Under the pieces are notes generated by a model, which saw only the letters and a list, made by a program, of their open reading frames with translations, did not search any database and was not told the origin of the DNA. The position numbers were made by a program, and so were the translations under genes. 64,000 nucleotides of DNA from positions 1,178,001 to 1,242,000 of the forward strand of contig NZ_CP083370.1 in assembly GCF_017488845.2 (NCBI RefSeq), read 5' to 3'. Positions 7,388 through 17,769 of this stretch are shown in pieces; the first letter of the stretch is position 1; every line of letters begins with the position of its first letter. The DNA is from Ensifer canadensis. Lineage in GTDB: Bacteria; Pseudomonadota; Alphaproteobacteria; Rhizobiales; Rhizobiaceae.

Positions 7388-7804
7388 TCAGTCGGTGAAC
7401 CGCCGCGCCACCCAGGAATAACCGTCCTCGATGTAGTGAACCGGCTTGCTGACCAGGGTCTTCAGCTTCTCACGGTCGGGAACGGCGCCGGAGAGAAACG
7501 CAAGGGCGCGCTTTGGCAGGGTCGGTTGCACCTCTGCTGCCTGCGGCGCCGGCGTCTCGGGCTGCGGAAGCGGAGCGACGACCTCCGGCTGCGGATCATT
7601 GGTGGCGAAGCCGGGGCCGGAACTCTCGCAGACGGCGACGACCACGGGATAGTTGGCATTGGAAAAGCGCGGCAACTGTTTCTGCGAATCCGTATCGCAT
7701 TGGGCGATCGAGGGCCATGTCCCGTCGACCGTCGAGATATATTGGCACTGGCTGACGTCGTGGTCACAGCCAAGGATGGTCATAACGATCAGGGTGGCTT
7801 TCAT
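7388..7804 (-). CDS. Conserved hypothetical protein, short N-terminal hydrophobic segment
   Basis: 138 aa from the ATG at 7804 (MKATLIVMTILGCDHD); the reading frame stays open farther upstream, but that part has poor coding character. A short hydrophobic N-terminus precedes a cysteine-containing region (CQYISTVDGTWPSIAQC), a proline/glutamate-rich linker (PQPEVVAPLPQPETPAPQ), and a basic C-terminal tail. It looks like a small exported or membrane-anchored rhizobial protein. No family function recognised. Confidence 0.6.
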   Translation of the reverse strand: MKATLIVMTILGCDHDVSQCQYISTVDGTWPSIAQCDTDSQKQLPRFSNANYPVVVAVCESSGPGFATNDPQPEVVAPLPQPETPAPQAAEVQPTLPKRALAFLSGAVPDREKLKTLVSKPVHYIEDGYSWVARRFTD

Positions 7805-8031
7805 GGTCTGGCTGTATCCATCTGGGCGCCGGTTGCACGACTTCTGCCTGTGTGATTCTTCCGGAATTAGGGCAATGGCCTGAACGCGCAGAAACAATTT
7901 GTTTCGCCGCGTCATTCGGATTGATGGGCAGGTCTGGTCCTTGCGCAATTTGACGTATTGGGTGCCGACCTACAGGCCGTTAGTTTCGCTTCAGAACCGC
8001 AAACGAACCAAGCCATTGCCGAGGATAAAAA

Positions 8032-8514
8032 TTGCCTGACGTCACGATCGCCGAAGAGTTACCACGCCAGCCGGAAATCCTGCGCCTTCTGGAAATGTCG
8101 GACGCCTATGCCGCATTGCTCTATCCTGCGGAAAGCAACCACCTTGTCGATGTGCCGACGCTGGAGAAGCCAAGCGTATCCTTCTTCGTCGCGCGTTTTG
8201 ATGGAATTGTCGTCGGTTGCTGCGCGCTGGTCGAAGCCGGCGATGGTTCGGCGGAGATCAACCGCATGTTCGTCGACCCGCAGGCGCGGGGACTGAAGGT
8301 CGGAAAGCGTTTGTTGCAGACAGTCGAGCGGCACGGCGAGAACTGCGGTCTTGATATCATCCGGCTTGAAACCGGTATTCACCAGCCGGAAGCAATCGGG
8401 CTCTACAGGAGCGCCGGATATGTCGAGCGCCCGCCTTTCGGCAACTACCAGCCGGATCCGCTGAGCCTGTTCATGGAGAAGGCGCTGCGCACACCTGCAG
8501 ATCTCGATCGATAG
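8032..8514 (+). CDS. GNAT family N-acetyltransferase
   Basis: 160 aa, TTG start with GAGGA seven bases upstream. The acetyl-CoA-binding segment is FVDPQARGLKVGKRLLQTVE (about residues 82-101), a Q/RxxGxG/A-type motif A, followed by the C-terminal IGLYRSAGYVERPPFGNY block. The substrate is unknown. The gene converges with parE; two hairpins lie between them. Confidence 0.85.
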   Translation: MPDVTIAEELPRQPEILRLLEMSDAYAALLYPAESNHLVDVPTLEKPSVSFFVARFDGIVVGCCALVEAGDGSAEINRMFVDPQARGLKVGKRLLQTVERHGENCGLDIIRLETGIHQPEAIGLYRSAGYVERPPFGNYQPDPLSLFMEKALRTPADLDR

Positions 8515-8548
8515 TCGGAGCGGCGTCTTTGAAGGCGCCTCGCAAATG

Positions 8549-8626
8549 GGCAACGCCCGTCGTTTCGGGCGTGCCATTATCGGCTTCACCCACGGTGCCT
8601 ATCTGCTTGTAAACACATAGGCACCG
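8549..8626. terminator. Two hairpins between converging GNAT and parE genes
   Basis: GGCAACGCCCG (8549-8559) pairs with CGGGCGTGCC (8566-8575), and CGGTGCCTAT (8593-8602) pairs perfectly with ATAGGCACCG (8617-8626). Neither has a strong T-run, but their location between convergent genes fits bidirectional termination or mRNA 3'-end protection. Confidence 0.45.
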
Positions 8627-8641
8627 CGACGTCTCGGTCGA

Positions 8642-10705
8642 TCAGATATCGAGATTATCCGCGAACACGGCGCGTTCCTGGATGAACCGGAAGCGTGCGT
8701 CGGCCTTGGTGCCCATCAGGCTGTCGACGGCTTCGCGCGTGCCTTCGAAATCGACGTCGTCGATTTGGACCTTGAGCAGCGTGCGGAACTTCGGATCCAT
8801 TGTCGTTTCCTTGAGCTGCGCCGGCAGCATCTCGCCGAGACCTTTGAACCGGCCGACTTCGACCTTGCCGCGGCCGTTGAATTCGGTGCGCATCAGCTCT
8901 TCGCGATGGGCGTCGTCGCGGGCATAGAGCGTCTTCGAGCCCTGGCTCAGGCGGTAGAGCGGGGGTACGGCGAGATAGAGGTGGCCGCCGCGGATGAGCT
9001 CCGGCATCTCCTGGTAGAAGAAGGTGATCAGCAGCGAGGCGATGTGCGCGCCGTCGACGTCGGCGTCGGTCATGACGACGATGCGTTCGTAGCGCAGGTC
9101 CTCTTCCCGGTATTTGCTGCGAGTACCGCAGCCGAGCGCCTGGATCAGGTCGCCGATCTGCTGGTTGGCGCCCTGCTTTTCCCGACCGGCGCTGGCGACG
9201 TTGAGGATCTTGCCGCGAAGCGGCAGGATGGCCTGGTTCGCGCGGTTACGCGCCTGCTTGGCCGAGCCGCCAGCCGAATCCCCTTCGACGATGAAAAGTT
9301 CCGCACCTTCGGCTGTGTTCTGCGAGCAGTCGGCAAGCTTGCCGGGCAGGCGCAGCTTGCGCACCGCGGTCTTGCGGTTGACTTCCTTTTCCTTGCGGCG
9401 GCGGACGCGCTCGTCGGCGCGCTCGATCACCCATTCAAGCAGTTTTGCCGCCTCGGCCGGGTTGTCGGCAAGATAATGATCGAAAGGATCGCGCAGGGCG
9501 TTTTCGACGATGCGCTGTGCTTCGACGGTTGCCAGCTTGTCCTTCGTCTGGCCGACGAATTCCGGCTCGCGAATGAAGACCGAGAGCATGCCAGCGGCTG
9601 AAATCATCACGTCATCGGTGGTGATAATGGCGGCGCGCTTGTTCTGCGTCAGCTCGGCGTAATTCTTCAGACCCTTTGTGAGCGCGATGCGGAAACCTGC
9701 CTCGTGCGTCCCGCCTTCAGGCGTCGGAATGGTGTTGCAATAGGAATGGACTTGCTGGTCGCCACCATACCAGGTGACGGCCCATTCGAGCGATCCGTGG
9801 CCGTTCGACTTCTCGGACTTGCCGGCAAAGATCTCGCGGGTAACCGTGAACTCCTTTCCGAGCGTTGCGGCAAGATAGTCCTTCAGGCCGCCGGGGAAGT
9901 GGAACACCGCCCGGTCCGGTATCTCGGAGCCTTCCGGCAGCAGCGACGGATCACACGACCAGCGGATTTCGACGCCGCCGAAGAGATAGGCCTTCGAGCG
10001 TGCCATGCGGAACAGGCGCGCCGGCTCGAAGCGGGCATGCGGTCCGAAAATCTGCGGATCGGGATGAAACCGAACCCGCGTTCCGCGTCGGTTGTGGACG
10101 TCACCTAGCTCCTCCAGGCCACCCTGCGGCACGCCGCGCGAAAAGCGCTGGCGATAGAGCTTGCGATTTCTGGCAACCTCGACTTCGAGATCGTCCGACA
10201 GCGCGTTGACGACGGAGACGCCGACGCCGTGCAGACCGCCGGAAGTTTCATAGGCCTTGCCGTCGAACTTGCCGCCGGCATGCAGAACCGTCATGACGAC
10301 TTCGAGCGTCGATTTGCCCGGGAATTTGGGATGGTTTTCGACCGGAATGCCGCGGCCGTTGTCGGTTACCGACAGATAGCCGTCGGCGTCGAGATGGACT
10401 TCGATGAAGTTGGCGTGCCCCGCCACCGCTTCGTCCATCGAGTTGTCGATGACTTCGGCGAAGAGATGGTGCAACGCCTTTTCATCGGTGCCGCCGATAT
10501 ACATGCCCGGACGCCGACGGACAGGCTCCAGCCCCTCCAGCACCTCGATCGCCGAAGCATCATAGTCGCCGCTGTCGCTGCCTTTGGGAGCAGGGCGCGG
10601 TTCTTCACGCGGAGCCGGCGCCGTTCGCGCAACAGGCGCGGCGTCTGCCACGACGGGCTTCGGTTGTTCGGGTATTGCGGAGAAGAGGTCGCTGTTGTCG
10701 TCCAT
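8642..10705 (-). CDS. parE: DNA topoisomerase IV subunit B
   Basis: 687 aa; the ATPase subunit that works with ParC to decatenate daughter chromosomes. N-terminal GHKL ATPase features are RRRPGMYIGGTDE and VIDNSMDEAVAGH, then TDNGRGIPV and GGLHGVGVSVVNAL. The Toprim domain has EGDSAGGSAKQARNR, ILPLRGKILNV and the metal-binding DADVDGAHI. The C-terminal GRFKGLGEM is conserved. It is ParE rather than GyrB because it lacks the GyrB-specific insert and begins with a Pro/Ala-rich leader (about 45 aa), as in rhizobial ParE. Monocistronic on the minus strand. Confidence 0.95.
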   Translation of the reverse strand: MDDNSDLFSAIPEQPKPVVADAAPVARTAPAPREEPRPAPKGSDSGDYDASAIEVLEGLEPVRRRPGMYIGGTDEKALHHLFAEVIDNSMDEAVAGHANFIEVHLDADGYLSVTDNGRGIPVENHPKFPGKSTLEVVMTVLHAGGKFDGKAYETSGGLHGVGVSVVNALSDDLEVEVARNRKLYRQRFSRGVPQGGLEELGDVHNRRGTRVRFHPDPQIFGPHARFEPARLFRMARSKAYLFGGVEIRWSCDPSLLPEGSEIPDRAVFHFPGGLKDYLAATLGKEFTVTREIFAGKSEKSNGHGSLEWAVTWYGGDQQVHSYCNTIPTPEGGTHEAGFRIALTKGLKNYAELTQNKRAAIITTDDVMISAAGMLSVFIREPEFVGQTKDKLATVEAQRIVENALRDPFDHYLADNPAEAAKLLEWVIERADERVRRRKEKEVNRKTAVRKLRLPGKLADCSQNTAEGAELFIVEGDSAGGSAKQARNRANQAILPLRGKILNVASAGREKQGANQQIGDLIQALGCGTRSKYREEDLRYERIVVMTDADVDGAHIASLLITFFYQEMPELIRGGHLYLAVPPLYRLSQGSKTLYARDDAHREELMRTEFNGRGKVEVGRFKGLGEMLPAQLKETTMDPKFRTLLKVQIDDVDFEGTREAVDSLMGTKADARFRFIQERAVFADNLDI

Positions 10706-10951
10706 GGGGCGTCTAGATCATTCCTGTCGTGCGGAGGTGCTGAAGGCCATAGCAAGACCTCGGTCTTGTCGCCATCCCCAGTCATTCGAATCACCCGAAT
10801 TCTGCCAGACTCTTGCCGATTGTGCGAACAAAAGGAGAATGGCCGCGCCGGATGCCTGCAAAATAAAGCCTCTGCGTCGGCGTTTGTTACCAACTGTTGC
10901 TTTGCTGTCGGGCCGATGGCAAGGCTTTGCCGCGAACCAGGGAGCCCTTCG

Positions 10952-11848
10952 TTGTCCGTGTCCACAGCTGATTTTTGCTTTCGCCGGCTTGCCGCCATTT
11001 TTCTGTCCGTCGGCCTTTTTGCAAGCTCGATCGTTTGCGCCGAGGCGCAGGTGCTTAAGCCCTACAAGGACGATCTGTTTTCATACGGCAAGGTGCTGGA
11101 GGAGAGCGAGGGCGGTGACTACCGCGTCGTCGACTATCAGGAACTGCGCGATATCAATGAACGCGACGAAATTCCGGAGCGGCGCGTCAAACGCGCCTTC
11201 GTCTCGTTGGGTGTCAAAGGCGAGCAGGTCAACGAGACGCTCGATGTTGGCGGGCGCTCGCTCGACGTGACGCGCGTCGGTCGGGAGCGCGGCGCAGCAT
11301 TCACCGTGATTTTCATCCATGGACGCGGGGGAGACCGGCGCCTCGGCGCCAATGATTTCTCCTTCGGCGGCAACTTCAATCGCCTGAAGAACCTCGCTGT
11401 CGCCAATGGGGGCGTTTATTACGCGCCGAGCGTGCGGTCCTTCGATGCGGCCGGGGCCGCGGACGTTGCAGGCCTGGTCAAACTTGCCGCCGAGCGCTCC
11501 GGCGGGAGACCTGTCGTGCTGGCCTGTGCCTCCATGGGCAGTTTCATTTGCTGGGGTGTGTCTCGTGACGCGGGCGCTGTGGCAGCGCTTGGCGGCATGA
11601 TGATCATGGGCGGCGCTGCCGATCCTGATTTTACCAAGAGCGCCGCCTACAAGGCGAAATTGCCGATGTTCTTCAGCCATGGCAGCCGAGATAGTGTCTA
11701 TCCGGCAGCGAGCCAGAAGGCGCTGTACAGCGCGTTGAAAGGGCAGGGCTATCCGGCCCGCTTCGTGCTCTTTGAGACCGGATCGCATGGAACGCCGGTC
11801 CGTATGACCGATTGGCGCGACGCCTTGAACTGGATCGGCAGCCGCTGA
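10952..11848 (+). CDS. Secreted alpha/beta hydrolase fold protein
   Basis: 298 aa from a TTG start with GGAG seven bases upstream; alternatives are GTG 10958 and ATG 10916. The N-terminal FRRLAAIFLSVGLFASSIVC-AEAQ segment is a Sec signal peptide, so it acts in the periplasm. The fold shows IFIHGRGGDRR (oxyanion region), a nucleophile elbow CASMGS in which the first Gly of G-x-S-x-G is Cys, an acid in SHGSRDSVYP, and the likely catalytic His in ETGSHGTP. Substrate unknown. It precedes the lipid-linked pentose operon by 129 bp but is probably separately transcribed. Confidence 0.8.
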   Translation: MSVSTADFCFRRLAAIFLSVGLFASSIVCAEAQVLKPYKDDLFSYGKVLEESEGGDYRVVDYQELRDINERDEIPERRVKRAFVSLGVKGEQVNETLDVGGRSLDVTRVGRERGAAFTVIFIHGRGGDRRLGANDFSFGGNFNRLKNLAVANGGVYYAPSVRSFDAAGAADVAGLVKLAAERSGGRPVVLACASMGSFICWGVSRDAGAVAALGGMMIMGGAADPDFTKSAAYKAKLPMFFSHGSRDSVYPAASQKALYSALKGQGYPARFVLFETGSHGTPVRMTDWRDALNWIGSR

Positions 11849-11977
11849 CGGACATCGCTCGCGGCTCGGCATTTGTTAACCAGAACGGCAATTTCCGGGT
11901 GTAGGCGCGCTGCTTATTTCCACCTTTGAAAGTGATCGGCGCGATTATCCCCGGCAGATATTGCTGGGGTAGATTTC

Positions 11978-13420
11978 ATGAATGCGCATATCGAAACACG
12001 GCAAATTCCGTTGTGTGTCGACTTGGATGGCACCTTACTGGCTGCCGACACACTGTGGGAAGGTGCTGCGATCATCGTTTTGCGCAATCCGCTGATGCTC
12101 TTCCCGATGCTCATGTGGCTATCGCAGGGCAAGGCGCGTCTGAAACATGAGGTTGCCTTGCGCTCCGGACGAATGGCGGCGGACTGGCCGTATCGCCAGG
12201 CCGTCCTTGCTCGATTGGCCGCCGAAAAGGCCCAAGGACGCGACATCGTGCTGGTTACCGGTGCTGCACCTTCCGTCGCGCGAGAGGTCGAAGCGCATAT
12301 CGGGCTCTTTTCTTCGATCATGCATTCGTCGGAGGCACTCAATCTGACCAGCAGCCGAAAGCGTGATGCGTTGGTGGAACGGTTCGGCGAAGGTGGCTTC
12401 GACTATATGGGCAACAGCCGCGACGACATCGCGGTCTTCGAGGCGTCGCGCCGGGCAATCGTCGTGGCACCCGATGCGGCGGCTGAGAAATGGCGTCGTA
12501 GTCACGATGCCGAGAAACTCGACACCGGCAAAGTGAGCATGCTTGCGCCGCTGAAGTCGATCCGCGTCCATCAGTGGGCGAAGAACGTGCTGATCGGCGT
12601 GCCGATGATCCTCAATCATGAGGTGCTGCATCTGGATGCGCTGGTGAGTGTTGCCATCGCATTCTTTGCGTTCAGCTTCCTGGCCTCCGCCGTCTACGTC
12701 ATCAACGACCTCTCCGATCTGGCGAACGACCGGCGCCACGCGAAGAAGCGCAACCGGCCGCTTGCCAGCGGCCAGATGTCGGTGCCGACGGCATTGGTGC
12801 TGGTCGTCTGCCTGACCCTGGCCTCGGTTTCGCTGACCTTTCTCCTTCCGTGGAAGTTTGCTGGCGTGCTGGCGTTTTATGCCTGTGCTACGACGGCCTA
12901 CACCTTTGTGCTCAAGCGCAAGCTTCTCGTCGACGTGTTCACGCTTGCCGGCCTCTACACGACCCGTATCGTTGCCGGTGCGGCGGCGACCGGAACGGAA
13001 CTTTCCTTCTGGCTGGTGTCGTTCGCGATCTTCTTTTTCCTCAGCCTGGCTCTGGTGAAGCGCTACGTCGAACTGCATGAATTCGACAACAAGGACGGCG
13101 GTGCCGTTCCCGGGCGCGGCTATCTCGCGGTCGATTTCGAGATGGTCGGGCAGGCAGGCGTGGCCTCAGCCTTCACTTCCGCTCTGGTGCTTGCGCTTTA
13201 CGTGCACAGCAAGGAACTGCAGGAAATGTACACGACGCCGTGGGCATTGTGGCCGCTTTGCCCGCTGGTGCTTTATATGCTCCTTCGGATCTGGATGCTG
13301 GCGCGCCGTGGCATGCTGCACGAGGATCCGGTGGTCTTCATCATGCGCGATTGGCGCAGCCAGCTGACCATGCTGATCGGGGCGTTACTTATTCTTTTCG
13401 GAGCCGTCGGGCCGCAATGA
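11978..13420 (+). CDS. HAD phosphatase-UbiA prenyltransferase fusion (DPPR synthase-like)
   Basis: 480 aa in two parts. Residues 1-190 form a HAD phosphatase: CVDLDGTLL (nucleophile and acid Asp15/Asp17), the VTGA Thr, a Lys in SSRKRDAL, and YMGNSRDDIAVFE for the fourth motif. Residues about 195-480 are a polytopic UbiA-type transferase with RVHQWAKNVL and NDLSDLANDRRH...KRNRPLASG, the NDxxDxxxD signature of decaprenyl-phosphate phosphoribosyltransferases (mycobacterial Rv3806c, Azorhizobium NoeC). Inference: it transfers 5-phosphoribose to a polyprenyl phosphate and removes the 5-phosphate. First gene of the operon; its stop overlaps the next start (ATGA). Confidence 0.82.
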   Translation: MNAHIETRQIPLCVDLDGTLLAADTLWEGAAIIVLRNPLMLFPMLMWLSQGKARLKHEVALRSGRMAADWPYRQAVLARLAAEKAQGRDIVLVTGAAPSVAREVEAHIGLFSSIMHSSEALNLTSSRKRDALVERFGEGGFDYMGNSRDDIAVFEASRRAIVVAPDAAAEKWRRSHDAEKLDTGKVSMLAPLKSIRVHQWAKNVLIGVPMILNHEVLHLDALVSVAIAFFAFSFLASAVYVINDLSDLANDRRHAKKRNRPLASGQMSVPTALVLVVCLTLASVSLTFLLPWKFAGVLAFYACATTAYTFVLKRKLLVDVFTLAGLYTTRIVAGAAATGTELSFWLVSFAIFFFLSLALVKRYVELHEFDNKDGGAVPGRGYLAVDFEMVGQAGVASAFTSALVLALYVHSKELQEMYTTPWALWPLCPLVLYMLLRIWMLARRGMLHEDPVVFIMRDWRSQLTMLIGALLILFGAVGPQ

Positions 13421-14739
13421 ACACACAAGACTACGAAAGTTGGGGCCGGCTCGACCGTCGGCCACGACAGGGCATTTCACCCGACGACTACGAAGATCGC
13501 ATCGGCAATATCGAGCCCGATGCCTTCCTGCCGTTCGGCAACGGCCGCAGCTACGGCGACAGCTGCCATAACGATCGCGGCATGCTGATCGACAACCGTC
13601 GACACGCGCGCATAATCGCCTTCGATCCGGGCACAGGGATGATGACCTGCGAAGCCGGCGTTACCCTTGGCGACGTTTTGGCCCGCGCCATTCCGCACCG
13701 CTTCTTTCTTCCCGTGACACCAGGTACGGCTTTTGTCACCGTTGGCGGCGCGCTTGCCAACGATGTCCACGGCAAGAACCACCATGCCCGCGGTACCTTC
13801 GGCAATCATGTGACTGGCTTTACGCTCCTGCGTTCCAATGGCGAGCACCTGGCCTGCACTCCGGCGGAGAACCAGGAGCTGTTTTCCGCCACGATCGGCG
13901 GAATGGGGCTCACCGGCTTGATCCTGACCGTCAGTCTTCGCCTCACCAAGGTGCCGTCGCCGCATGTGCAGCAGCACGCGATCCGCTTCGATAATCTCGA
14001 CGAATACTTTGGTCTCGTCGATCGCGTCGACGAAGAACACGAATACTCAGTCGCCTGGATCGACCAGCTTGCAACGGGACGGCGTATGGGCCGTGGGGTT
14101 CTGCTGGCCGGCGACCATGCCGATGGCTCTTGCGAGCTTCCCGATATGCCGAAAGGCATGAAGCTCTCGGTGCCGTTTTCGCCACCGTTCAACCTGCTCA
14201 ATTCAGCGACGCTCAAGGCCTTCAACGAATACTATTTCCGCAAGCAGAAACCGGGCGAGGCCGTGTCGACGGTGCCGTGGACTTCCTATTTCTATCCGCT
14301 CGACGCCATCGGCGCGTGGAACAGGCTGTACGGCCCCAAAGGTCTGTATCAGCACCAGAGCGTCTATCCCGCCGAGAATGCGCGGGAGATCACCGCGACG
14401 CTGATGGAGACCGCGCGCCGTGCCGGACACGCATCGTTCCTGACCGTCTTGAAGCGCTTCGGGGACGTCGCCTCCCGCGGGCTCCTATCGTTTCCGCGGC
14501 CTGGTTTTACTTTGACGCTCGACTTCGCCAATCAAGGTGAACGGACGGTTAAGCTGCTGGACAGGCTGGATGCAATCGTTGTCGAAGCCGGGGGCGCGAT
14601 CAATCCTTACAAGGATGCGCGTATGAGCCCGCAAGTCTTTGAAAAATCTTTCACTTCCTGGAGGGAGCTTGAGGCTTTGCGCGATCCAGCGCTGACGTCG
14701 AACTTCTGGCGCCGCACGGCGCTGGCTTTGCCAAAGTGA
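13417..14739 (+). CDS. DprE1-like FAD-dependent oxidoreductase
   Basis: 440 aa with a VAO-type FAD-binding domain followed by an arabinono-lactone-oxidase-type C-terminus. FGNGRSYGDSCHNDRG, PGTAFVTVGGALANDVHGKNHHARGTFGNHV and GGMGLTGLIL closely match decaprenylphosphoryl-beta-D-ribose 2-epimerase subunit DprE1. The His of HGKNHH and the Lys of NPYKDAR (DprE1 Lys418) are kept; the position of the benzothiazinone-target Cys387 is Thr (GFTLTLDF). Predicted reaction: oxidation of the ribose 2-hydroxyl of the lipid-linked sugar made by the upstream enzyme. The start overlaps the upstream stop by four bases. Confidence 0.85.
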   Translation: MNTQDYESWGRLDRRPRQGISPDDYEDRIGNIEPDAFLPFGNGRSYGDSCHNDRGMLIDNRRHARIIAFDPGTGMMTCEAGVTLGDVLARAIPHRFFLPVTPGTAFVTVGGALANDVHGKNHHARGTFGNHVTGFTLLRSNGEHLACTPAENQELFSATIGGMGLTGLILTVSLRLTKVPSPHVQQHAIRFDNLDEYFGLVDRVDEEHEYSVAWIDQLATGRRMGRGVLLAGDHADGSCELPDMPKGMKLSVPFSPPFNLLNSATLKAFNEYYFRKQKPGEAVSTVPWTSYFYPLDAIGAWNRLYGPKGLYQHQSVYPAENAREITATLMETARRAGHASFLTVLKRFGDVASRGLLSFPRPGFTLTLDFANQGERTVKLLDRLDAIVVEAGGAINPYKDARMSPQVFEKSFTSWRELEALRDPALTSNFWRRTALALPK

Positions 14740-14832
14740 GAATGCCGACAATTTTATTAAATTAAACACGCGAACTTCACTGAATATGCGTCTCTCGCGT
14801 GTAGGTACTTCCCCGGGACTGGGGGTAAAACT

Positions 14833-15273
14833 ATGAAATATATTCCATTCATTCTCTTCACTGTGCTGACCAATGCGGCGGCACAGTTGATGCTGAAACA
14901 GGGCATGATGTCACTCGGGCCGATCTCGATGACGGCAGAGACGGCGATTGTTCGCCTGTTCCAGATCGTTTTCAATCCATGGGTCTTCGCGGGTCTCGCG
15001 ACCTTTGTCATCTCGATGGCATCGCATCTCTATGTGCTGTCGAAGGTAGAGCTTTCCTTCGCCTATCCGTTCCTGAGCCTGGCCTATGTGGCGGTTGCGA
15101 TCTTCGCCTACTTCGTCTTCCGCGAGGACCTCAATGCCTGGCGCATCGCCGGCATCGCGCTCATCTGCGTTGGAACGGTTCTGATCGCCCAGTCGGGCAT
15201 GTCATCCCATGGCGACGAAAAGTCGATCGATACGGCTGGTGCAAGAACAGCAGATTTCGGGAGCAAGTCATGA
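14833..15273 (+). CDS. ArnE/EamA-like small multidrug-resistance family membrane protein
   Basis: 146 aa with four predicted transmembrane helices (about residues 3-20, 48-68, 75-97, 100-120). NAAAQLMLKQGM at the end of helix 1, LYVLSKVELSFAYPFLSLAY, and ICVGTVLIAQSG at the end of helix 4 resemble ArnE/ArnF, the SMR-type subunits that flip undecaprenyl-phosphate-aminoarabinose. In this operon the likely job is moving the sugar-lipid across the inner membrane. The cytoplasmic tail ends with overlap into the next gene (ATGA). A 93-bp AT-richer gap with an 8-bp stem precedes it, the only gap in the operon. Confidence 0.72.
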   Translation: MKYIPFILFTVLTNAAAQLMLKQGMMSLGPISMTAETAIVRLFQIVFNPWVFAGLATFVISMASHLYVLSKVELSFAYPFLSLAYVAVAIFAYFVFREDLNAWRIAGIALICVGTVLIAQSGMSSHGDEKSIDTAGARTADFGSKS

Positions 15274-16280
15274 AGCATATTATCTTTGGTGGCGACGGTT
15301 TCGTCGGCCGGCATCTGGCGCAGCGCCTCGTTCAGGATGGCGAGGAGGTCGTGGTCGCCGATATCGTCAAGTCCGATCTGCCGCACTACAACCGTGCCCG
15401 CTTCGTCCATTGCGATGTGACGCAGATGAGCGATGTGCTGAAGGTCGGTATCGGCCCTGACGACATGGTCTACAACATGGCGGCCAAGATGCTGTCACCG
15501 TTGCAGATCCGTTCGAAGCGCTGGGATTTCTTCTGGCCGGTCAACTACTACGGTGCCGAGAACATCATGAAGGCCATGGGCGCAGCCAATGCGTCGCGTC
15601 TCGTTCAGTTCACCACGGACATGATCTACGGCCACACGGTGCAGTCGCCGCAGACCGAGGACCATCCGGCAAAGCCGCTCGGCGAATACGGAAAATCGAA
15701 GTGGGCAACGGAGCAACTTGCCGCTCAATGGCGCAAGCAGGGCATGAACATCTCGATCTTCCGCCCACGCCTGATCATCGGACCCGGCCGCCTCGGTATC
15801 CTCGAAAAACTGTTCAAGCTGATCGACATGAACCTGCCGGTGCCGATGATCGGTTCGGGCAGGGTACCGTACCAGTTCATCTCGGTGTTCGACTGCGCCG
15901 AAGCGGCGCGGCTCGCCTGGAAGGGTGGCGTGCCCAACGAGGCCTACAACCTCGGCTCGGATAGTCCTCCTTCGGTGCGTGAGCTTCTCGGCAACCTGAT
16001 CAAGCACGCCGATTCAAAGTCCTTCCTGCTGCCGACGCCTGGCTTCGCAGTGAAGCAGACACTGGCGCTGTTCGATCTGATCAACAAGCCGATCATGGAT
16101 CCGGAGCAGTACCTGATTGCCGACGAACTTTGCGTCCGTGAAACGGGCAAGCTGAAGCATCAGCTCGGCTGGCGGCCGGAGTTCAACGATGGCGACATGC
16201 TGATTGCCGCCTATGACGAGTATCGGGCCAAGAAATCCGGCGCTGCCATGCAAAACGCCGCAGCCGTACCGGCCGAGTGA
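15270..16280 (+). CDS. NAD-dependent epimerase/dehydratase (extended SDR)
   Basis: 336 aa. The Rossmann nucleotide motif is at the very start (IIFGGDGFVGRHLAQRL), Asp30-type acid in VVVADIVKSD suggests NAD preference, and TTDMIYG followed by EYGKSKWATEQ provides the Ser/Thr-Tyr-Lys triad (YxxxK). PRLIIGPGRLG and YNLGSDSPPSVREL fit sugar-nucleotide or sugar-lipid epimerases. Given the DprE1-like oxidase upstream, it may serve as the keto-reductase that DprE2 provides in mycobacteria, though DprE2 is a classical rather than extended SDR. Four-base overlap with the gene before. Confidence 0.82.
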   Translation: MKHIIFGGDGFVGRHLAQRLVQDGEEVVVADIVKSDLPHYNRARFVHCDVTQMSDVLKVGIGPDDMVYNMAAKMLSPLQIRSKRWDFFWPVNYYGAENIMKAMGAANASRLVQFTTDMIYGHTVQSPQTEDHPAKPLGEYGKSKWATEQLAAQWRKQGMNISIFRPRLIIGPGRLGILEKLFKLIDMNLPVPMIGSGRVPYQFISVFDCAEAARLAWKGGVPNEAYNLGSDSPPSVRELLGNLIKHADSKSFLLPTPGFAVKQTLALFDLINKPIMDPEQYLIADELCVRETGKLKHQLGWRPEFNDGDMLIAAYDEYRAKKSGAAMQNAAAVPAE

Positions 16281-16291
16281 GGGGAATGACA

Positions 16292-17746
16292 ATGCTGGAT
16301 AGACCGAACCGCACAGGCGTCTCGGCGCCGTCGATCGAAGGCGGGGTCGCAAGGCCAAATCTGATCACGGTCGAGCAGGCGAAAGCCATGTCGATCGGGG
16401 ACATCACGACCGCCTTCAAGGACCATCTCAACCCTGGTCAGCTTCACTTCATGAAGCTGCTCGGCTTTCACAAGGTGAAGATCGAAAGCGCCGAGGGCAT
16501 GTACTACACCGATCAGAACGGTCGGAAGATTCTCGACTTCTTCGGCGGCTTCGGTTCGCTGGCCTTCGGCCACAACCATCCGCGTATTCTCGAAGCACGC
16601 CAGAAGTTCCAGGACGAGAAGCGCCACGAAATTGCGATCGCCTTCATGTCGCAATATGCATCGGCGCTCGCCAAGAACATTGCCGCCTGCTCGCCTGCTG
16701 ATCTCGACATGGTCTTCCTCGGTTCCTCCGGTTCCGAGGCGATGGAGGCAGCCGTCAAGCTCGCCGAGCGCGCCGCCGGCCCGAAGCGTCCGAAGGTCGT
16801 CTACGCGGAAAATTCCTTCCATGGGAAAACCAAGGGCGTGCTTGCCATTACCGACGGCCAGCTTTACCGCGCCGAGTTTAGGGTTGCCGACAACACGGTC
16901 CGCGTTCCCTTCGCCGATATCCAAGCCGTCGAGAACGCCTTCAAGTCCGATCCCGAAATCGGCGTGATCGTGCTCGAGACGATCCAGGGCGGCGGTGGCA
17001 TCATCCAGGCGCCGGCCGAGTACTGGCAGCAGCTGCGTGCGCTCTGCGATCGCTATGGCGTCCTGTGGGTCGCTGATGAAGTGCAGTGCGGTTATGGCCG
17101 TTCGGGTCGCTTCTATGCTTTCGAGCATTATGGCGTCATTCCTGACGTCACCGCGCTCGCCAAGTCGCTCGGTGCCGGCAAGGCGGCGGTTGGCGCAATG
17201 ATCGCCCGCCGCGACGTCTACATGAAGGCTTATGGCACATCGAAGACGGCGATGATCCACGCCATGGCGACCTTCGGTGGCATGGGCGAAGCCTGCGTCA
17301 CCGCGATCGAGGGCATCAATGTGCTCTACGACGATCATCTGATCGATCGCGCCGCTGACAGCGGCGACTATCTGCTTGAACGCCTGCAGGCGCTGAAGGA
17401 AAAATATCCGAAGATCATCAAGGACGTACGCGGCAAGGGACTGATGGTTGGCCTGGAGTTCCAGGATTTCAGCCAGACGTTGCCGATGGTTCTGCGTCCG
17501 GTCGTTTCCGTGTTGGATGACAAGCTGAAGGGCTCGCTCTCTGGCTTCATCGGTGCGTTGCTTCTGCGCGACTACGACGTGCTGGTTGCCTTTACCGAAT
17601 ACAATCGCAATGTCATCCGGCTCGAGCCGCCGCTGATCTGCGAGCGCGCGCACGTCGACCAGTTCATCGCGGCACTGGATGAGCTTCTTGGCCGCGGCAT
17701 CGTGCATATCGTCAAGGATTTCCTCGGTAGCCAGATCGGCGGCTGA
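16292..17746 (+). CDS. Class III PLP-dependent aminotransferase
   Basis: 484 aa from ATG 16292, chosen because AGGGG (16280-16284) sits seven bases upstream; GTG 16277 and ATG 16286 are alternatives. Typical class III landmarks: FFGGFGSLAFGHNHP, GSSGSEAMEAAVKLA (PLP phosphate), SFHGKTKG, WVADEVQCGYGRSGRF (PLP Asp) and ALAKSLGAGK with the Schiff-base Lys. It resembles ornithine/acetylornithine-type and HpnO-type enzymes, but no hopanoid genes are nearby. As the operon's last gene it suggests that a keto or aldehyde intermediate of the sugar-lipid pathway is aminated; the true substrate is unknown. A terminator follows. Confidence 0.85.
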   Translation: MLDRPNRTGVSAPSIEGGVARPNLITVEQAKAMSIGDITTAFKDHLNPGQLHFMKLLGFHKVKIESAEGMYYTDQNGRKILDFFGGFGSLAFGHNHPRILEARQKFQDEKRHEIAIAFMSQYASALAKNIAACSPADLDMVFLGSSGSEAMEAAVKLAERAAGPKRPKVVYAENSFHGKTKGVLAITDGQLYRAEFRVADNTVRVPFADIQAVENAFKSDPEIGVIVLETIQGGGGIIQAPAEYWQQLRALCDRYGVLWVADEVQCGYGRSGRFYAFEHYGVIPDVTALAKSLGAGKAAVGAMIARRDVYMKAYGTSKTAMIHAMATFGGMGEACVTAIEGINVLYDDHLIDRAADSGDYLLERLQALKEKYPKIIKDVRGKGLMVGLEFQDFSQTLPMVLRPVVSVLDDKLKGSLSGFIGALLLRDYDVLVAFTEYNRNVIRLEPPLICERAHVDQFIAALDELLGRGIVHIVKDFLGSQIGG

Positions 17747-17769
17747 GCGGAAACCCAAAAATACCTCGA

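Follow-up and report, generated by a model that had tools for sequence, protein, structure and literature searches.

What does a five-gene operon on the plus strand (11978–17746) of a 64,000-nucleotide stretch of the Ensifer canadensis genome (contig NZ_CP083370.1, positions 1,178,001 to 1,242,000; here called the window, at its full length) make, and for what use? Its genes encode, in this order, a HAD-UbiA fusion, a DprE1-like oxidase, an ArnE/F-like protein of the SMR type, an extended short-chain dehydrogenase/reductase (SDR), and a class III aminotransferase (AT). An initial annotation, made from the same letters, described five plus-strand genes of these kinds as a self-contained route that makes, epimerizes or aminates, and flips a pentose on a polyprenyl phosphate. 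Gene order and strand were confirmed, with family matches for all five products. The operon is real and coherent and occurs widely in its order. It is also more than chance, because the order UbiA-DprE1-SMR-SDR is kept in 16/16 examined genomes of the genus and AT accompanies the set in 8/8 such loci from the family's other genera. We lean slightly toward the view that its product is a lipid-linked amino-pentofuranose, used as the donor when the sugar is transferred outside the cytoplasmic membrane.

First steps of the pathway and the missing DprE2

The carrier-lipid pentose part of the route is strongly indicated by homology. The UbiA part would join phosphoribose derived from phosphoribosyl pyrophosphate to polyprenyl phosphate, and the fused HAD part would remove the 5-phosphate, two steps for which the case is strong. 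The only matches of the UbiA part among solved structures in the PDB are the mycobacterial decaprenylphosphoryl-5-phosphoribose (DPPR) synthase 8j8j (E 1e-25) and 8j8k, and DPPR synthases score best among the function-named NCBIfam models, at approximately 1e-42 against approximately 1e-8 for heme/quinone enzymes, which upholds the earlier placement of this part with the DPPR synthases. Residue conservation was read from aligned proteins of 80 loci, using only open reading frames of plausible length, and the UbiA R/E residues, like the HAD DxD and NDxxDxxxD motifs, are invariant in 64/64 of them. The HAD-UbiA domain order is that of a biochemically shown polyprenyl-phosphate ribofuranose synthase of Citrobacter youngae, and the N247/D248/D251/D255 pattern of its ORF15 matches NDxxDxxxD (PMC11127046). 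By homology and motifs, the polyprenyl phosphoribose synthase and the phosphoribose phosphatase of three-component pentofuranose systems both have counterparts in this fusion.

The DprE1-like enzyme would likely oxidize C2 to give a 2-keto lipid. Its match to mycobacterial DprE1 spans 376 residues (E 1.7e-68), and both the HGK and the YKD segment are retained, which supplies the DprE1 homologue of the DprE1/DprE2 arabinofuranose pathway with its residues conserved; its NCBIfam score is 342 bits, under the equivalog cut-off of 500. The earlier claim of a route to a pentose on polyprenyl phosphate, in which an oxidase and a flippase-like protein take part, is supported. In place of the DprE2 reduction to arabinose, the AT may turn the ketone into a 2-amino-2-deoxy-pentofuranosyl lipid, and the extended SDR, which seems dispensable, may adjust the sugar by epimerization or reduction.

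In a sample spread evenly over the order, DprE2 adjoins DprE1 in 17/19 DprE1 loci without AT, the examined loci extending approximately 1.5 kb past DprE1 and six of the 36 DprE1 matches, which have no locus, standing outside this count. No DprE2 match was obtained in the 64 kb window, to which the search in this genome was confined, in L001 and L004–L026 (0/24), or in the flanks of AT loci L059–L069 (0/11); the 101 AT loci gave none that was clear, with two weak matches distant from AT (L150, L152). Among four further DprE1 loci outside the 17/19 count, L237 and L238 (from the genomes of AT loci L125 and L113) have no DprE2 in their flanks, and L239 and L240 have one. In a quick, midpoint-rooted DprE1 tree of 52/112 sequences picked for spread, L058 (G079) and L072 (G242), the two AT-less loci without DprE2, fall among the AT-linked enzymes, and AT locus L067 sits beside DprE2-linked rows. 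AT and DprE1 seem to have been joined more than once, since L103 (G487:C98), from outside the order, has AT together with a DprE1 that belongs to the DprE2-linked lineage, again without DprE2; its gene order, SMR-SDR-UbiA-DprE1-AT, is also different. N396 and Y398 are typical of most members of the AT-type DprE1 group, and DprE2-linked enzymes carry Y-x-A/S-K; as a test of amination these residues were rejected, because AT loci L067 and L103 keep Y/A.

DprE1 of this type was found in 24/61 related genomes (52–100% identity). Within the genus, AT was read directly in 3/16 genomes (window, L044, and L045), and in the family's other genera SDR goes with the set in 7/8 loci. The even sample of the order holds AT (E <= 1e-100) in 12/249 genomes and DprE1 (E <= 1e-40) in 36/249, and in 12/12 AT genomes DprE1 lies on the same contig, 0.1–3.2 kb off. 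AT is a constant member of the set. In the class, AT (E <= 1e-90) was found in 2/385 genomes, the window's own among them. Genera with the set include Ensifer, Mesorhizobium, Hoeflea, Shinella, Ochrobactrum-group Brucella species, and others.

Under a stricter filter, the 80 named loci (kept from 443 confirmed relatives, short contigs included) have UbiA in 68, DprE1 in 67, SMR in 78, and SDR in 76. The 101 AT loci were drawn from two overlapping genome collections, with some genomes present twice (the contigs of L035 and L180 are both 2102496), and were counted at a loose E of 1e-3, under which L093 has an SDR that it lacks under the stricter SDR filter. Thirteen of these 101 AT stretches lack DprE1; L110 and L177 lie on short stretches, and the other 11 genomes carry DprE1 elsewhere (7/7 and 4/4). 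In Hoeflea, SMR-SDR-AT stands apart at L127, L135, L146, L150, L151, L153, and L159 (near parE in six), with UbiA-DprE1 as a separate pair at L186–L191 and L195. Scattered genes in related genomes had been named as evidence against a joint route; the set is indeed split into two places here, but both parts are kept in 7/7 genomes, which argues for the link.

Flippase-like protein and candidate transferases

The ArnE/F-like protein likely flips the lipid. Its matches to ArnF (1.1e-14) and ArnE (6.1e-9) are both weak and under the curated cut-offs, and such a gene is present in 98/101 AT loci; the flippase gene of three-component pentofuranose systems has its counterpart in a predicted flippase of the SMR/ArnE-F-like type, not MATE. 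The flippase type is different at AT-less DprE1 loci, of which 5/8 (L094 set aside) carry a GtrA gene. Separately, L091 (G197:C129, 9189–10196) has no SMR or SDR by its AT and adjoins an LPG_synthase_TM (PF03706) protein, possibly another flippase, with two proteins that have PMT_2 matches nearby.

Two membrane-protein families of predicted GT-C fold, f7 and f25, neither with a Pfam match, lie near AT in 64/80 named loci. Their models match GT-C enzymes, with ArnT as the best or near-best fold match for both, and they are the predicted counterpart of the GT-C component known from three-component pentofuranose systems. Gene linkage and fold point to f25 or f7 as the enzyme that would transfer the sugar to an acceptor. 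One or the other was found in 24/24 of the related genomes with this DprE1 type (of 61), and one GT-C family searched in the remaining 37 gave 0/37. No f7 or f25 match lies in the 64 kb window beside the Ensifer operon, and a single-sequence f7 search of the window's genome gave nothing real (best E 0.33); the f25 alignment recovered one f25 gene approximately 208 kb from the operon (G000:C1:1403680–1405365; L202 8654–10417), flanked by a Na/Pi transporter gene on one side and glmU-glmS on the other, neighbors that name no acceptor. The suggested look for glycosyltransferase genes gave a candidate, and "self-contained" does not hold, as the operon has no transferase and the predicted GT-C enzyme is encoded elsewhere in the genome. 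At L090 (G194:C12, 5932–7236), a 434-aa membrane protein between UbiA and SMR has a weak PMT_2 match (E 0.002) and is perhaps a further transferase type.

Operon features and surroundings

The window's genome (G000) comprises 8.09 Mb in six contigs. Within the operon (Table 1), UbiA/DprE1 and SMR/SDR each share a 4-base overlap, the DprE1-SMR gap is 93 bases, and the AT start ATG lies five bases past the SDR stop; DprE1 starts at ATG 13417, the mechanical open reading frame start at 13240 being too early. Pfam matches are UbiA (1.2e-25, with a sub-threshold HAD), FAD_binding_4 (3.9e-20), EamA (1.7e-7), Epimerase (1.1e-32), and Aminotran_3 (5.2e-84), and those in NCBIfam include PRK08238 (7e-172, HAD-UbiA) and DprE1 (6.2e-102). 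The AT proteins nearest to the window's come from Ensifer adhaerens (97% identity), and K293 is presumably the lysine that binds pyridoxal phosphate (PLP), as in other class III aminotransferases.

Table 1. Genes and motifs of the operon, in window positions.
Feature	Position	Strand	Remarks
HAD-UbiA fusion	11978..13420	+	predicted polyprenyl-phosphate phosphoribosyltransferase, N-terminal phosphoribose phosphatase; family matches, ORF15-like domain order (PMC11127046)
HAD DxD, residues 15 and 17	12020..12028	+	D at both positions in 64/64
UbiA NDxxDxxxD motif, residues 243-251	12704..12730	+	invariant in 64/64
DprE1-like FAD oxidase	13417..14739	+	predicted to oxidize C2 of lipid-linked ribose
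NPYK segment of DprE1	14602..14613	+	K399 aligned with K of KD segment in mycobacterial DprE1
SMR/EamA membrane protein, ArnE/ArnF-like	14833..15273	+	predicted flippase of charged lipid
Extended SDR (epimerase/dehydratase/reductase type)	15270..16280	+	start ATG 15270; motifs intact
SDR YGKSK motif, residues 140-144	15687..15701	+	Y and K in 74/74
Class III PLP aminotransferase	16286..17746	+	start ATG 16286; GTG 16277 and ATG 16292 are alternatives
Codon of expected PLP lysine K293 (TALAKSLG)	17162..17164	+	K in 75/75

A 515-codon open frame antisense to the AT gene (16211–17758, minus strand) is probably a by-product of codon bias. The operon's neighbors were tried as a clue to the acceptor and rejected, as the upstream alpha/beta hydrolase is near the operon in 5/13 large loci, and YceI and cytochrome b561, which lie downstream, are near it in 2/13, both of the window's genus.

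Competing routes, related systems, and meaning

We infer the amination, its carbon, and the acceptor. The specific form in which the amine is added on the lipid, with a DprE1 2-keto lipid, AT replacing DprE2, ArnE/F-like flipping, and two interchangeable GT-C families, has in our estimate an equal chance of being right or wrong. At five loci (L036, L091, L093, L109, and L133; the search for SDR was confined to these stretches), DprE1 and AT occur without an adjoining SDR, which fits an AT acting directly on the DprE1 product. Two observations weigh the other way: L094 (G079:C1:78000–97000) has UbiA, DprE1, SMR, SDR, and f25, with no AT found in its 2.6 Mb genome, a natural AT-less variant, and in the genomes of L143 and L149 a DprE1 elsewhere adjoins a DprE2. 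Taken together, these put amination at C2 of the DprE1 product at about even, with the SDR presumably an accessory epimerase or reductase. In the initial wording "epimerizes or aminates," amination is the better founded part; the extended SDR is not a DprE2 and is absent beside AT in the five loci. A neutral pentofuranose, in which the SDR would replace DprE2 to yield arabinofuranose or another epimer and AT would act elsewhere, e.g., on the acceptor, is a rather doubtful but substantial alternative: the AT-less L094 and SDR motifs intact in 74/74 suit it, as does the lone GalE-like SDR that sets the xylofuranose side chain of C. youngae O2 (PMC11127046), but the SDR-less loci do not, nor does the general lack of DprE2 at AT-linked DprE1 loci.

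The ketone might instead come from the SDR, with AT acting at another carbon (e.g., C3) to give a 3-amino sugar and DprE1 serving separately. We consider this unlikely; L125, L143, and L149 show UbiA-SMR-SDR-AT without DprE1 in between, and pathways to amino sugars commonly pair an NAD-dependent SDR with an aminotransferase, but these three genomes carry DprE1 elsewhere, and the loci where DprE1 and AT occur without an SDR speak against it. AT might also be a hopanoid (HpnO-type) or amino-acid enzyme that merely shares the operon. HpnO is a class III aminotransferase, and the solved structures that AT matches best are PigE and putrescine aminotransferase. The aminotransferase HpnO is reported to be restricted to Hyphomicrobiales (PMC12583986). 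Such a role is very improbable, as close AT relatives (E <= 1e-100) in the even sample were confined to genomes with DprE1; the hopanoid form is disfavored for this host, whose genome has no match to squalene-hopene cyclase (TIGR01507), and a related aminotransferase (26% and 35% identical) stands in 2/6 cyclase loci, where hpnO need not lie. Almost no weight is given to a quinone or heme prenyltransferase in a cluster unrelated to sugar lipids. In its favor, Pfam places the protein in the UbiA family and no further; against it, DPPR synthase is both the sole solved relative by sequence and the top function-named model, and the HAD fusion and NDxxDxxxD motif are conserved.

Set beside known systems, the proposed amino-pentofuranose route appears to parallel the three-component and mycobacterial decaprenylphosphoryl-arabinose pathways through the DprE1 step and then to depart. 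The C. youngae O1/O2 systems likewise combine a HAD(PRP)-UbiA synthase, a flippase, a GT-C transferase, and pentose-changing auxiliary enzymes (PMC11127046); they differ in having a MATE flippase where an ArnE/F-like one is found here, and the present set has DprE1, a class III aminotransferase, and an extended SDR, with GT-C families f7/f25 and, in Ensifer, an unlinked transferase gene. The term "aminotransferase" does not occur in the main text of that source. The mycobacterial pathway shares a DPPR-synthase-like UbiA, DprE1, and a last GT-C step (there by Emb/Aft enzymes), whereas here no DprE2 stands beside DprE1, a HAD fusion replaces the separate phosphatase, and an aminotransferase and extended SDR are added. 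The Arn system (ArnB, ArnE/F, ArnT) shares the aminopentose idea, the weak ArnF/ArnE match, and the ArnT fold match of the GT-C families. This Arn-like export side fits an aminopentose and is no proof of one. In Arn, an aminotransferase from a different class acts on a nucleotide sugar; in the operon, amination would occur on the lipid.

NoeC-type relatives had been offered as kin. A NoeC-like UbiA-GtrA-DprE1-DprE2 set lies near nodA, nodB, acyl-carrier-protein, and FabF-like genes at L043 (G013:C4:217000–236000, 7541–15910) and probably serves Nod-factor arabinosylation. It shares UbiA and DprE1 homologues with the operon but also carries DprE2 (NF053786, 1e-58) and GtrA, and it lacks both AT and SMR. 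The same genome, of the same genus, also carries the chromosomal operon type studied here, so the two are distinct systems.

No description of this gene set was found in open-licence literature (titles and abstract openings on the pathway, the genera, and NoeC), and it is best read as a variation on the DprE1/three-component pentofuranose systems. The proposal brings together, in one testable pathway, five conserved genes and two Pfam-less membrane-protein families. The DprE1/DprE2 route is a drug target in mycobacteria; if the proposal is true, that route would here be redirected by swapping one enzyme, an aminopentofuranose would join the known lipid-linked donors, and bacteria would have a second, chemically independent way to a lipid-linked aminopentose. 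The product would be an unrecognized modification of the envelope, which, like aminoarabinose, could be positively charged, and many Hyphomicrobiales would be expected to bear an undescribed aminopentofuranose on their envelope.
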